Positions 29,943 through 60,937 of a stretch of DNA of 64,000 bases are shown piece after piece (position 1 is the stretch's first letter; every line of letters begins with the position of its first letter). Under the pieces are notes generated by a model. The model did not search any database, was not told the DNA's origin, and saw nothing but the letters and a program-made list of their open reading frames with translations. The position numbers and the translations under genes are program-made. This DNA is from Leucobacter musarum subsp. musarum (GTDB lineage Bacteria > Actinomycetota > Actinomycetes > Actinomycetales > Microbacteriaceae). Where the stretch lies: NCBI RefSeq assembly GCF_001273845.1, contig NZ_JHBW01000086.1, positions 62,001 to 126,000 of the forward strand. Direction: 5' to 3'.

Positions 29943-29979
29943 CACGAAACCCCCGTCGCAATGCGACGGGGGTTTCGTG
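29943..29979 (+). terminator. rplQ terminator
   Basis: Perfect 16-bp stem (29943-29958 with 29964-29979), 5-base loop. It starts 18 bases after the rplQ stop. The tail is CGTTCG, so a long T-run is lacking. Confidence 0.85.
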
Positions 29980-34913: not shown

Positions 34914-34952
34914 GTTCGGCCCCGCACCTCGTTCGAAGGTGCGGGGCCGAAC
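34914..34952. terminator. Bidirectional terminator between convergent genes
   Basis: 16-bp perfect stem, 34914-34929 with 34937-34952, 7-base loop. It lies between the nuclease gene (plus) and the acyltransferase gene (minus), whose stops are 78 bases apart, and can serve both. Confidence 0.8.
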
Positions 34953-48315: not shown

Positions 48316-48326
48316 ACCGCGACTCC

Positions 48327-48366
48327 GCGAATGGCCCCGGAAGCTTCGGCTTCCGGGGCCATTCGC
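48327..48366. terminator. 18-bp bidirectional terminator with TTCG loop
   Basis: 48327-48344 pair exactly with 48349-48366 around TTCG closed by C-G. It separates the plus gene ending at 48315 from the minus gene ending at 48398, so it serves both. Confidence 0.88.
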
Positions 48367-48397
48367 GTCTGCGGCGCACGCCTGCCAGCAGTGCCCG

Positions 48398-58190: not shown

Positions 58191-59777
58191 ATGACGATTC
58201 AGTCGGAACAGCCGGGGCACCGCCCCGTACTCGTCGTCGATTTCGGTGCGCAGTACGCGCAGCTGATCGCGCGACGCGTGCGCGAGGCCGGAGTGTATTC
58301 GGAGCTCGTACCTCACACCATCACCGCGGCAGAGGTGCAGGCGCGCAACCCGCTCGGCATCGTGCTCTCGGGCGGGCCGTCATCGGTCTACGAAGAGGGC
58401 GCACCGTCATTCGATGACAGCGTCTTCGAGCTTGGCGTTCCCGTGCTCGGCATCTGCTATGGCTTCCAGGTGATGGCCCGTGCACTCGGCGGCACCGTCG
58501 GCAACACCGGCGACCGCGAGTACGGCGCCACCGATGCGACGCTCGTCGGCGACGGTGGCGCGATTCTCGGCGGCCAGCCGGCGGAGCAGAACGTCTGGAT
58601 GAGCCACGGCGACGCCGTGCAAGAGGCCCCCGAGGGCTTTGAGGTGCTCGCGAAGACCGCAGTGACCCCGGTCGCTGCTTTCGGTTCGGCCGAGCGCAAG
58701 CTCTACGGTGTGCAGTGGCACCCTGAAGTGAAGCACTCGGATCACGGCCAGAAGATCCTCGAGAACTTCCTGCACCACGTCGCCGGCATCGCGCCCGACT
58801 GGAACGCCGGCAACGTCATCGCCGAGCAGATCGACCTCATCCGCAAGCAGGTCGGCAACGCACGCGTCATCTCCGCACTGTCGGGCGGCGTCGACTCGGC
58901 CGTCTCGACCGCGCTCGTGCACGAGGCGATCGGCGACCAGCTCACCGCGGTGTTCGTCGATCACGGGCTGCTGCGCAAGGGCGAGCGCGAGCAGGTCGAG
59001 AAAGACTACGTCGAGTCGACGGGTGTGCGCCTCATCACGGTGGAGGCCGCAGACACGTTCCTGGGTCACCTCGCGGGCGTCACCGACCCCGAAGAGAAGC
59101 GCAAGATCATCGGCCGCGAATTCATTCGCGCGTTCGAGCAGGTGCAGCGCGACCTGGTCGCTGAGGCCAAAGCCGAGGGCGAACCCATCAAGTTCCTCGT
59201 GCAGGGCACGTTGTACCCCGATGTCGTTGAGTCCGGCGGCGGCTCGGGCACTGCGAACATCAAGTCTCACCACAACGTCGGCGGCCTGCCTGAAGACCTC
59301 GACTTCGAGCTGATCGAACCGTTGCGCGCCCTCTTTAAAGACGAGGTGCGTGCGATCGGCCGTGAGCTCGGTATTCCCGAAGCGATCGTCGGTCGCCAGC
59401 CGTTCCCCGGCCCCGGCCTCGGCATTCGCATCGTCGGTGAAGTCACCCGCGAGCGCCTCGAGGTACTGCGCGAGGCCGACGCGATCGCTCGCGCCGAACT
59501 GACGGCCGCCGGTCTCGACAACTCGATCTGGCAGTGCCCGGTCGTGCTGCTCGCCGACGTGCGCTCCGTGGGCGTGCAGGGCGATGGCCGCACGTACGGT
59601 CACCCGATCGTGCTGCGCCCGGTCTCGTCGGAAGACGCGATGACCGCCGACTGGACCCGCGTGCCCTACGACGTGCTGGCTCGCATCTCGAACCGCATCA
59701 CCAACCAGGTTCCGGAGGTCAACCGAGTGGTGCTCGACGTCACGTCGAAGCCGCCGGGAACCATTGAGTGGGAGTGA
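58191..59777 (+). CDS. guaA: GMP synthase (glutamine-hydrolysing)
   Basis: 528 residues; aminates XMP to GMP. The glutamine amidotransferase domain (1-205) has [20 protein letters not shown], the nucleophile C89 in [16 protein letters not shown] and the His in [12 protein letters not shown]. The ATP pyrophosphatase domain has the P-loop [20 protein letters not shown]. The dimerisation domain includes [16 protein letters not shown] and ends [14 protein letters not shown] at 58191 with TGGAGCG upstream. Confidence 0.97.
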
Positions 59778-59820
59778 GCGTGTAGGGATTGCCCATTTCT
59801 GGGCAATCCTCGCTCACTCC
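59771..59820 (+). terminator. guaA terminator overlapping the stop codon
   Basis: GGAGTGAGCG (59771-59780, containing the TGA stop) pairs with 59811-59820. Inside, 59786-59795 pair with 59800-59809 around TTTC, leaving a small left-hand bulge. The last codons of guaA are part of the stem. Confidence 0.8.
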
Positions 59821-59862
59821 GAGATCGTCTCGGTCTCGGTCCGCTCGTAGAGCGGGAAGGCG

Positions 59863-59886
59863 AGAGCCCGGCTTCGGCCGGGCTCT
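59863..59886. terminator. Second hairpin downstream of guaA, TTCG loop
   Basis: Perfect 10-bp stem, 59863-59872 with 59877-59886, loop TTCG; followed on the plus strand by TCCCGTTT. It may be a backup terminator for guaA. Confidence 0.65.
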
Positions 59887-59936
59887 TCCCGTTTCACCGG
59901 TGATAACCACGCGTGGTCAGAGCGACCACCGGCCCG

Positions 59937-60014
59937 CGAATGCTCCCTTTCTCGCCGAGCGCCTCTGAAGTGCGCGTGCACATGGCAGGGGTTCGGCGAG
60001 AAAGGGAGCATTCG
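59937..60014. repeat. 22-bp perfect inverted repeat, possible dispersed palindromic element
   Basis: 59937-59958 is exactly complementary to 59993-60014. The pairing continues imperfectly inward (59959-59964 with 59987-59992, one mismatch and one wobble). The ~20-base centre has a small GTGC/GCAC hairpin. There is no T-run and no coding content. I found no second copy in this window. Confidence 0.75.
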
Positions 60015-60043
60015 GCGTTCGGAGCTCCCGCCCGCACGCACGA

Positions 60044-60077
60044 AAACGGGCCCGGCGCCGAAGCGCCGAGCCCGTTT
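60044..60077 (-). terminator. Terminator of the BI-1 family gene
   Basis: On the minus strand a 15-bp stem (60077-60063 with 60058-60044, one mismatch, 4-base loop) is followed by a T. It starts 17 bases after the stop codon at 60095. Confidence 0.75.
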
Positions 60078-60094
60078 GTGTGCGTTGCGAATCG

Positions 60095-60937
60095 CTAGTT
60101 GTTGCCGCGCAGAATCGCGAGGATGCGCAGGATCTCGACGTACAGCCAGATCAGCGTCACCATGAGGCCGAAGGCCGCCGACCAGGCCCACTTCTCGGGC
60201 ACGCGGTTGCGCACGCCGTTCTGGATCAGCTCGAAGTCCATGACCAGCGAGTAAGCGGCCAGCAACACGGCGAGGCCGCCGATGACGACGCCCAGCGGAA
60301 TACCGAAGATCGTTGCACCGCGCATGCCCCACGGATCCTGGTTGACGCCGGTGAGCATGAGCACGACATTGACGACCGAGAATGCGAGGTACCCGAAGAT
60401 CGCGACCATGAAGATCTTGTTCATCTTGGGGCTGGTGCGCACCTTGCCGCTGCGGAAGAGCAGCAGCGTCACACCGAATACAGCGAGTGTGCCGATGATC
60501 GCCTGCGAAACGATGCCCGACCACTGCGATTCGAAGATGCCCGAGATGCCGCCGAGGAAGACGCCCTGGAACACTGCGTACAGCACGATGAGGGGCACGC
60601 TGGGCTGCTTCTTGAACGAGTTTACGAGGCCGAGCACCAGGCCGATGATCGCGGCCGGGAGCGCGAGAGCCGGAACGAACCAGCCAACCGCACCGAATGC
60701 GAGCACGATGACGAACAGCAGCACGGTCTTGGAGATCGTGTTCTCGTAGGTCATCGGCTTGTCGGAGGGCGCGACCACGGGGGGCTGCTGCGCTCCGAAG
60801 CCGGCGTCGGTGGCGGGCGTATCGACACCCGGGCGCTGCGTCTGCGCAGCGGGCTGGTCGTAAATGCGGCGCAGCTCGTCAGCGGTAAGTGTCTTACCGT
60901 TGAGTGCGGGGTTGTTACTGAGAGCCGGATTGCTCAT
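60095..60937 (-). CDS. Bax inhibitor-1/YccA family membrane protein
   Basis: 280 residues, seven transmembrane helices after a ~70-residue soluble N-terminus (LTADELRRIYDQPAAQTQRP). Family pattern: a first helix VLLFVIVLAFGAVGWFVPAL and the C-terminal Asp-containing helix (AYSLVMDFELIQNGVRNRVP) with LIWLYVEILRILAILRGNN. YccA/YetJ relatives act as pH-sensitive calcium leak channels or FtsH modulators; the function here is unproven. AAAGGA precedes the ATG, and TAGACT (complement of 60974-60979) is a likely -10 box. Divergent from the phosphodiesterase gene. Confidence 0.92.
   Translation of the reverse strand: MSNPALSNNPALNGKTLTADELRRIYDQPAAQTQRPGVDTPATDAGFGAQQPPVVAPSDKPMTYENTISKTVLLFVIVLAFGAVGWFVPALALPAAIIGLVLGLVNSFKKQPSVPLIVLYAVFQGVFLGGISGIFESQWSGIVSQAIIGTLAVFGVTLLLFRSGKVRTSPKMNKIFMVAIFGYLAFSVVNVVLMLTGVNQDPWGMRGATIFGIPLGVVIGGLAVLLAAYSLVMDFELIQNGVRNRVPEKWAWSAAFGLMVTLIWLYVEILRILAILRGNN

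Follow-up and report, generated by a model that had tools for sequence, protein, structure and literature searches.

Between guaA and a convergent gene of the Bax-inhibitor-1 (BI-1) family, the genome of Leucobacter musarum subsp. musarum carries a long palindrome, which raises the question of whether it serves these two genes locally or belongs to a family of sequences that occur elsewhere. We analysed it within a window of 64,000 nt (the whole stretch of DNA under study), in the genome from which the window comes (the home genome) and in genomes of related bacteria. Genomes, contigs and loci are numbered by G, C and L, respectively.

The spacer is largely built as a sequence-only reading had described it. 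Positions 59937-59958 and 59993-60014 match in 22/22 bp as a perfect inverted repeat, the 34-nt centre holds a further hairpin, no T-run follows the palindrome, and the identities of guaA and BI-1 are both backed by Pfam (Table 1). Hairpins do flank the palindrome; they number three, of which two are located towards guaA and one towards BI-1, where the sequence-only reading had given two. Folded alone on the + strand, nucleotides 59930-60022 reach -64.2 kcal/mol, compared to -37.4 +/- 3.5 kcal/mol for 200 dinucleotide shuffles (z -7.8; 0/200 as low). The conserved element (59934-60017) exceeds the 22-bp palindrome in length, and each of its arms consists of two tandem 19-nt units. Elsewhere in the window, one-unit hairpins with perfect arms of 16-19 bp lie near gene ends at 29943-29979, 34914-34952 and 48326-48367, two of the three containing CGAA followed by a C-run; they resemble single element units and are probably ordinary terminators.

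Table 1 Features of the guaA/BI-1 spacer, in window positions
Feature	Position	Strand	Basis
guaA (GMP synthase), upstream convergent gene	58191..59777	+	ORF; Pfam GATase + GMP_synt_C
Hairpin adjoining guaA stop, terminator-like	59785..59810	+	fold; putative role
Second guaA-side hairpin, terminator-like	59862..59884	+	fold; putative role
84-nt palindromic element, 2x 19-nt units per arm and 24-nt centre	59934..60017	.	covariance model, alignments
Left outer unit core CGAATGCT; consensus CGARNNCC, 1 mismatch	59937..59944	+	
Left inner unit core CGAGCGCC, 19 nt past outer core	59956..59963	+	
Right inner unit core, + strand GGGGTTCG; consensus GGNNYTCG	59988..59995	-	
Right outer unit core, + strand AGCATTCG; 1 mismatch	60007..60014	-	
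Hairpin adjoining BI-1 stop, terminator-like	60036..60084	-	fold; putative role
BI-1 family gene, downstream convergent	60095..60937	-	ORF; Pfam BaxI_1 E 1.5e-76

A dispersed repeat family with fixed geometry

The palindrome is one copy of a dispersed repeat family, and we regard the family, its 19-nt/24-nt geometry with covarying arms and its preference for gene 3′ ends as established. A blastn-type search of the home genome yields about 10 related places, and a covariance model built on 10 copies recognises at least 15 distinct places at E < 1e-6, a lower bound because scoring covered 150 of the 9197 candidates from a first look. This bears out the dispersed palindromic repeat that had been suggested from the sequence alone; the opposite outcome would have been a single copy tied to the 3′ region of guaA, which is not what is seen. 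The window element corresponds to the model match C115:121934-122017 and is itself part of the model, while copies outside the model are recognised with E values of 1.3e-14 to 1.1e-8 (C96:6532, C19:65470, C98:103905, C18:14663 and C98:116167). Five weaker matches (E 2e-6 to 0.025) represent a 75-nt relative of the element. Contig C98 (217 kb) holds 6 of the 15 home elements, two of which flank a gene and are 57% and 70% identical to the window copy; the larger contig C116 (876 kb) has none among the covariance model matches, an uneven spread. Single units with at most one mismatch occur 430 times, compared to 114 for the reversed pattern, a difference confounded by codon use. At L177 (G000:C98:40644-40751), tandem genes are separated by an inverted repeat whose arms match perfectly over 31 bp around a centre of 46 nt; its sequence is of another type and possibly represents a further repeat family.

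In Rfam, 14 families or regions match at E <= 10 with at most 25.4 bits, compared to a gathering score of 100 for the top match, and we take all of these as chance. The element has no blastn match in plasmids and phages, and viral contigs contain neither the exact geometry nor a relative of the protein described below. Among the literature matches listed, from a search with most subscription papers outside its scope, neither the repeat nor its association with a gene is described.

We searched related genomes with the geometry pattern CGARNNCC-N11-CGARNNCC-N24-GGNNYTCG-N11-GGNNYTCG. With at most two mismatches, 10/398 Microbacteriaceae genomes contain matches: the home genome has 16 (overlapping registers unmerged), G040 has 3 that fall at 2 places, and four genomes from a second genus, g100, have 3-12 apiece. 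Matches in G127, G266, G301 and G357 (1-2 each) were judged by eye to be chance, and the reversed control pattern matches in one genome (G084). With at most one mismatch, the pattern is found in 9/396 genomes of the order, belonging to 2/110 genera (the home genus and g100), and the reversed control in none of these 396.

An 84-column alignment of 55 elements from both genera contains no gap; their sequences differ between Leucobacter and g100, and the geometry is common to both. The unit cores are nearly invariant, and the linkers change on both arms together. Both-side changes number 442, compared to 191 +/- 10 in shuffles, and covariation is 0.470, compared to 0.175 in shuffles and at most 0.132 when the arms are slid; these values contain a bias towards pairing for the Leucobacter copies, found partly via the structure model, the g100 copies having been found via cores alone. 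One further measure, which counts how many pairs show both-side change at all, is not outstanding (30 compared to 28.4, 103/500 shuffles as high). The foot of the element has the consensus CGCCGAR, of which CGAR was already demanded by the search pattern for the second-genus elements. A covariance model search of 40 genomes, the home genome included, gives matches in 11 at E <= 0.01. Named BI-1 homologs in a public collection place the home genome among Leucobacter. Six further Leucobacter genomes (G004, G009, G016, G017, G023, G024) each carry a sequence version of their own, and the matches in G019, G026, G029 and G039 resemble plain hairpins by eye. Some loci of G016 and G004 carry longer arrays with an exact 19-nt period.

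The position of the elements among genes is biased. Among 16 home elements (the 15 and L074 of the 75-nt type), 11 lie between convergent genes, 4 between tandem genes and 1 between divergent genes, where L072 is counted as tandem, its adjoining gene having been missed by the gene caller (as also beside L065). In two stretches of the home genome convergent gaps make up 50/305, compared to 11/16 for the elements (p 4.5e-6), with simple gene calls that label the window's own spacer as tandem in this background. The elements of g100 and G040 (n=31) comprise 19 convergent, 12 tandem, 0 divergent and 0 inside genes. For 19 further loci of relatives (L075-L093), some of which are plain hairpins of other genera and which are left out of the orientation counts, the numbers are 7 convergent, 9 tandem, 2 divergent and 1 overlapping a called gene. 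At two home element loci the relatives G004 and G040 are without the array, and one of these loci has a different long hairpin in G040. We set aside an origin in which the element entered the loop of a pre-existing terminator: across 15 elements, sequences outside the 84 nt pair slightly better with their own partner than with others at 20 and 30 nt and not at 40 nt (511, 533 and 6606 of 20000 permutations, respectively).

Nuclease-like genes bracketed by matching repeats

Matching repeats bracket AbiEi-like/DUF559-like genes in several genera. In the home genome, the copies C98:116167-116250 and C98:117393-117476, which are 67% identical and both recognised by the covariance model, enclose one gene (C98:116341-117381). 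The homologous gene is also enclosed by two copies in G016, and a homolog is adjoined by one copy in G009. The interior of the brackets, to which the scan was confined, leaves no room for a second gene, such as that of a paired AbiEii toxin, at L275, L276, L278 and L281.

The N-terminal part of the encoded protein is AbiEi-like (PADLOC AbiEi E 1.2e-10, 2.2e-10 and 4e-13); Pfam AbiEi_4 matches 11/23 members at E <= 0.1, the home protein weakly and below the curated cut-off. The C-terminal part aligns with DUF559 (hhalign E 7.1e-8, probability 94.6), while Pfam DUF559 directly matches 0/23 members and, in the home genome, only another gene (on C99). Residues E236, D267, D280 and K284 are invariant and E278 is nearly so, forming an E...D...ExD..K motif that we take to be of the PD-(D/E)XK nuclease type. 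A PDB sequence search returned no convincing relative (best E 0.048, an allergen). A profile of the protein finds matches in 160/248 genomes of the order at E <= 1e-15. Since 65/86 genera sampled have the protein and two have the exact 84-nt geometry, the form of other flavours must be different. Elements are present and a close homolog is absent in G040, G172 and G415, the latter two having a distant homolog. At L290 (G321:C53:97576-98247) the adjoining homolog seems to lose its reading frame within the catalytic part, so that the neighbour of some elements may be a broken gene.

We tested bracketing by comparing the 420 bp before each gene with the 350 bp after it, where a score >=20 denotes matching flanks, for (i) 24 homolog loci from 9 of 12 chosen genomes of two genera and (ii) the top locus in each of 28 genomes covered by the order-wide search, which are the strongest matches and thus non-random, and among which L302 repeats a gene of the first set. 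Matching flanks are found at 13/24 homologs of the first set (12 direct, 1 inverted) and at 10/28 of the second (3 direct, 7 inverted), leaving 11/24 and 18/28 without them at this threshold. For control genes, all from the home genome and not genus-matched, the count is 0/266 with a maximum score of 17, and at the homolog loci themselves windows lying farther out yield 0/50. The resulting Fisher p-values of 2e-16 (first set) and 1e-11 (second set) are too small because orthologous loci are counted repeatedly in the first set. The C98 locus of the home genome scores 14 and stays under the threshold because its two flanking copies have diverged. Among loci found via DUF559 itself, 6 of 27 testable ones (of 30) have matching flanks, the home C99 gene included. 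At this DUF559-type gene (L335, G000:C99:23618-23929 with flanks) similar palindromes of other sequence lie on both sides.

The 19-nt period likewise extends beyond the sequence of the window copy. Exact repeats of 8-mers 19 nt apart occur in the flanks of 17/24 and 10/27 homologs (L323 was dropped for its short flanks) compared to 13/266 controls, and a 20-nt period is also prominent in the second set (8/27 compared to 1/266). The period recurs with differing sequences, such as CACGAGAGTGCGGTTTTGC in G009, GAGTGTGAGGCGAAACGCT beside the home C116 gene and GCCGAGAGTCCCCTTTCTT in g93. Similarity of proteins and of unit cores is correlated (Mantel r 0.36, 10/20000 permutations) for 15 of the 24 proteins, with cores chosen by eye. 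Of the 75-nt type, the home copy C93:398628-398702 lies 79 bp past the home C93 gene, and the other 75-nt copies resemble, by eye, the flanks of that gene.

Comparison of the same gene pair between species separates the bracketed gene from solo palindromes. The gene with its repeats at L277 (G009) has as its counterpart the palindrome alone at L074 in the home genome, and the same holds for L287 (G358) and L243 (G415); in each case the genes on both flanks match. One flank only matches for L280 and L074, L299 and L243, and L293 and L259. Gene-bearing loci are orthologous between species, so that movement of the gene is rare or old.

Elements, too, occupy the same gene pair in several species, for example the guaA/BI-1 pair in the home genome, G016 and G023. 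Orthologous elements of close species are the most alike (0.80-0.92). For distant species, a home element resembles copies in its own genome by 0.70-0.72 and its ortholog by 0.58-0.63, and an element of g100 resembles copies in the same genome by 0.75-0.76 and its ortholog by 0.56; guaA/BI-1 orthologs are excluded from the ortholog comparison, and pairs with the mis-extracted elements L091, L076, L220, L206 and L231 (6-8 pattern mismatches) are left out. Seen from G016, G023 and G040, the paralog averages of 0.53-0.64 are not clearly above the ortholog values, partly because mis-extracted elements are included (in the averages of G016 and G023). These likenesses fit old positions whose sequence may have been homogenised within some genomes. 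Two further observations concern this gene pair. The guaA/BI-1 spacer of G040 (L097) contains a direct duplication, in which a terminator-like hairpin and the palindromic CACTCGATCGCCGGCGATCGAGTG each occur twice. In a Leucobacter relative (G009:C1:1375535-1376364) the BI-1 gene is apparently interrupted, with two matches, one of which has an internal TGA.

Alternative readings of the element

The reading that we hold to be the probable one, a REPIN/RAYT-like repeat system whose cognate gene is nuclease-like and unrelated to RAYT, has four competitors. The most serious, which we nevertheless consider unlikely, is an operator array, in which the AbiEi-like protein would be a regulator acting on palindromes in the manner of type IV antitoxin autoregulation, the dispersed copies being extra sites and nothing being mobile. 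According to the available portion of one report, AbiEi antitoxins recognise palindromes within the promoters of their own genes, and one of these antitoxins binds an oriT as well (PMC11062541). Better conservation of the unit cores and their spacing than of the linkers agrees with this reading, as do the outer units at L196 and L220 of G016, which by eye are apparently alike in the core only. However, copies lie downstream of the gene too, solo copies are found mostly between convergent 3′ ends and not at promoters, and a binding site alone leaves whole 84-nt copies with covarying linkers unexplained.

Less probable still is a bidirectional terminator or 3′-end RNA stabiliser common to convergent genes. 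The hairpin is highly stable, its arms covary, and elements often abut stop codons, many being located 6-50 bp from stop codons on both sides and L257 and L267 within 6-11 bp. Yet an RNA terminator is unlikely because G·U mismatches are no commoner than A·C mismatches and no T-run follows the element. For 16 elements between tandem genes, read on the known transcript strand, we count 35 G·U and 31 A·C (p 0.71), and 60 and 57, respectively, in 32 convergent elements, for which the strand is arbitrary. The mean T fraction is 0.14 in the 15 nt past the element, and the longest T run past the 32 convergent elements is 3. Both marks of an intrinsic terminator, a U-tract after the hairpin and tolerance of G·U above A·C, are thus missing here. 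Moreover, guaA and BI-1 each have other hairpins of their own, and gene bracketing and genome-specific flavours remain unexplained by termination or stabilisation. The absent RNA-type preference for G·U is compatible with a protein-binding cruciform, a possibility that had also been raised in the sequence-only reading.

That the element is a miniature form derived from a known transposon, be it RAYT, IS200/IS605 or a different insertion sequence, is very improbable, although dispersal, hairpin form and extragenic site are typical of REPs as far as described in the sections available of PMC3116915 and PMC3733652. The RAYT domain Y1_Tnp (PF01797, E <= 0.001), the only one searched genome-wide, matches in 0/30 genomes, the home genome included, compared to 5/14 controls, and searches of Pfam, NCBIfam and PADLOC with the bracketed gene give no match to a known transposase. 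The earlier suggestion of a MITE remnant, taken in its strict sense, loses its footing here, as no parent transposase was seen in the genome-wide search for Y1_Tnp. Least credible of all, and barely worth retaining, are ordinary palindromes kept perfect by template switching in replication and alike between loci by chance: such DNA-level correction would produce the equal G·U and A·C mismatches, but common cores, a fixed 19-nt period and a 24-nt centre across loci and genera exceed local correction, and gene bracketing likewise needs more than that.

Proposed repeat system and its relation to known systems

Under the REPIN/RAYT-like reading, the window palindrome would be a solo, non-autonomous copy of the dispersed family, and its likely cognate gene is C98:116341-117381, located between two further copies. 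We infer that the protein binds the 19-nt units and that its nuclease acts at the palindrome, at its extruded hairpin or at a target, whereby the repeat sequence would be copied or converted between loci. Such copying could lead to one sequence flavour per genome and gene, and copies would persist at sites where they cause little damage, in the unused DNA that separates convergent gene ends. What weighs most against this reading are the homologs whose flanks do not visibly match and the three genomes that carry elements and no close homolog.

Repeats that bracket nuclease-like genes in a range of related bacteria suggest an undescribed repeat-spreading system. Tentatively, and with somewhat less conviction than for the reading itself, we extend this to an undescribed class widespread in Actinomycetales, in which AbiEi-like/DUF559-type proteins may spread and homogenise palindromic arrays of 19-20-nt iterons, each gene with its own flavour, by nuclease-driven copying and not by single-strand transposition. 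REP-like repeats are regarded as RAYT-associated or orphan in the parts of the literature accessible to us (PMC3733652, PMC3116915). A second, unrelated gene family bracketed by palindromes would, if true, be a candidate maker of orphan repeats in Actinobacteria, and a common gene family known by toxin-antitoxin and DUF names only would gain a role.

Several known systems share single features with this one. Uptake-signal terminators, formed by inverted DUS pairs, likewise have a short genome-typical unit in inverted intergenic pairs, to judge from the excerpt available (PMC2267715), whereas the element here has few copies, 19-nt arrays, a bracketed gene and no T-run. AbiE type IV toxin-antitoxin systems, whose AbiEi binds inverted repeats in the portion of text available (PMC11062541), resemble the bracketed protein in its AbiEi-like N-terminal region. 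They differ in that the bracketed protein has a DUF559-like C-terminus and is encoded by a single gene between palindromes at the four loci examined. With DUF559/Vsr-like proteins and EDxHD homing endonucleases it has in common the catalytic-type motif E...D...ExD..K and a compact domain. Homing nucleases spread sequence through cut and copy; here no intron or intein is seen, and the companion is a palindromic repeat.

Repeats of the REP type come closest. CGTC-tagged REPs are palindromic, lie near convergent 3′ ends and have no dedicated transposase found, in the account partly available to us (PMC3733652); the element here is without the CGTC tag, larger (84 nt) and of strict 19/24-nt geometry. 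REPINs are described, in the passages available, as dispersed inverted doublets that form extragenic hairpins, with one flavour for each single-copy, mostly vertically inherited gene nearby (PMC3116915), and REPs prefer convergent and unidirectional gene ends, again from partial text (PMC3733652). The REPIN/RAYT cognate is a Y1 transposase and the gene here is AbiEi-like/DUF559-like; the units here are 19-nt iterons, of which each arm has at least two, and neither a GTAG nor a CGTC tag is present. We therefore do not file the element as a REP and call it REP-like in its working, because the enzyme is unrelated, RAYT was not found in 30 genomes and the tags that mark most REPs are absent. What it shares with the REPIN/RAYT system is an extragenic, dispersed palindrome that prefers gene 3′ ends, together with a gene flanked by the same repeat flavour (13/24 and 10/28 compared to 0/266).
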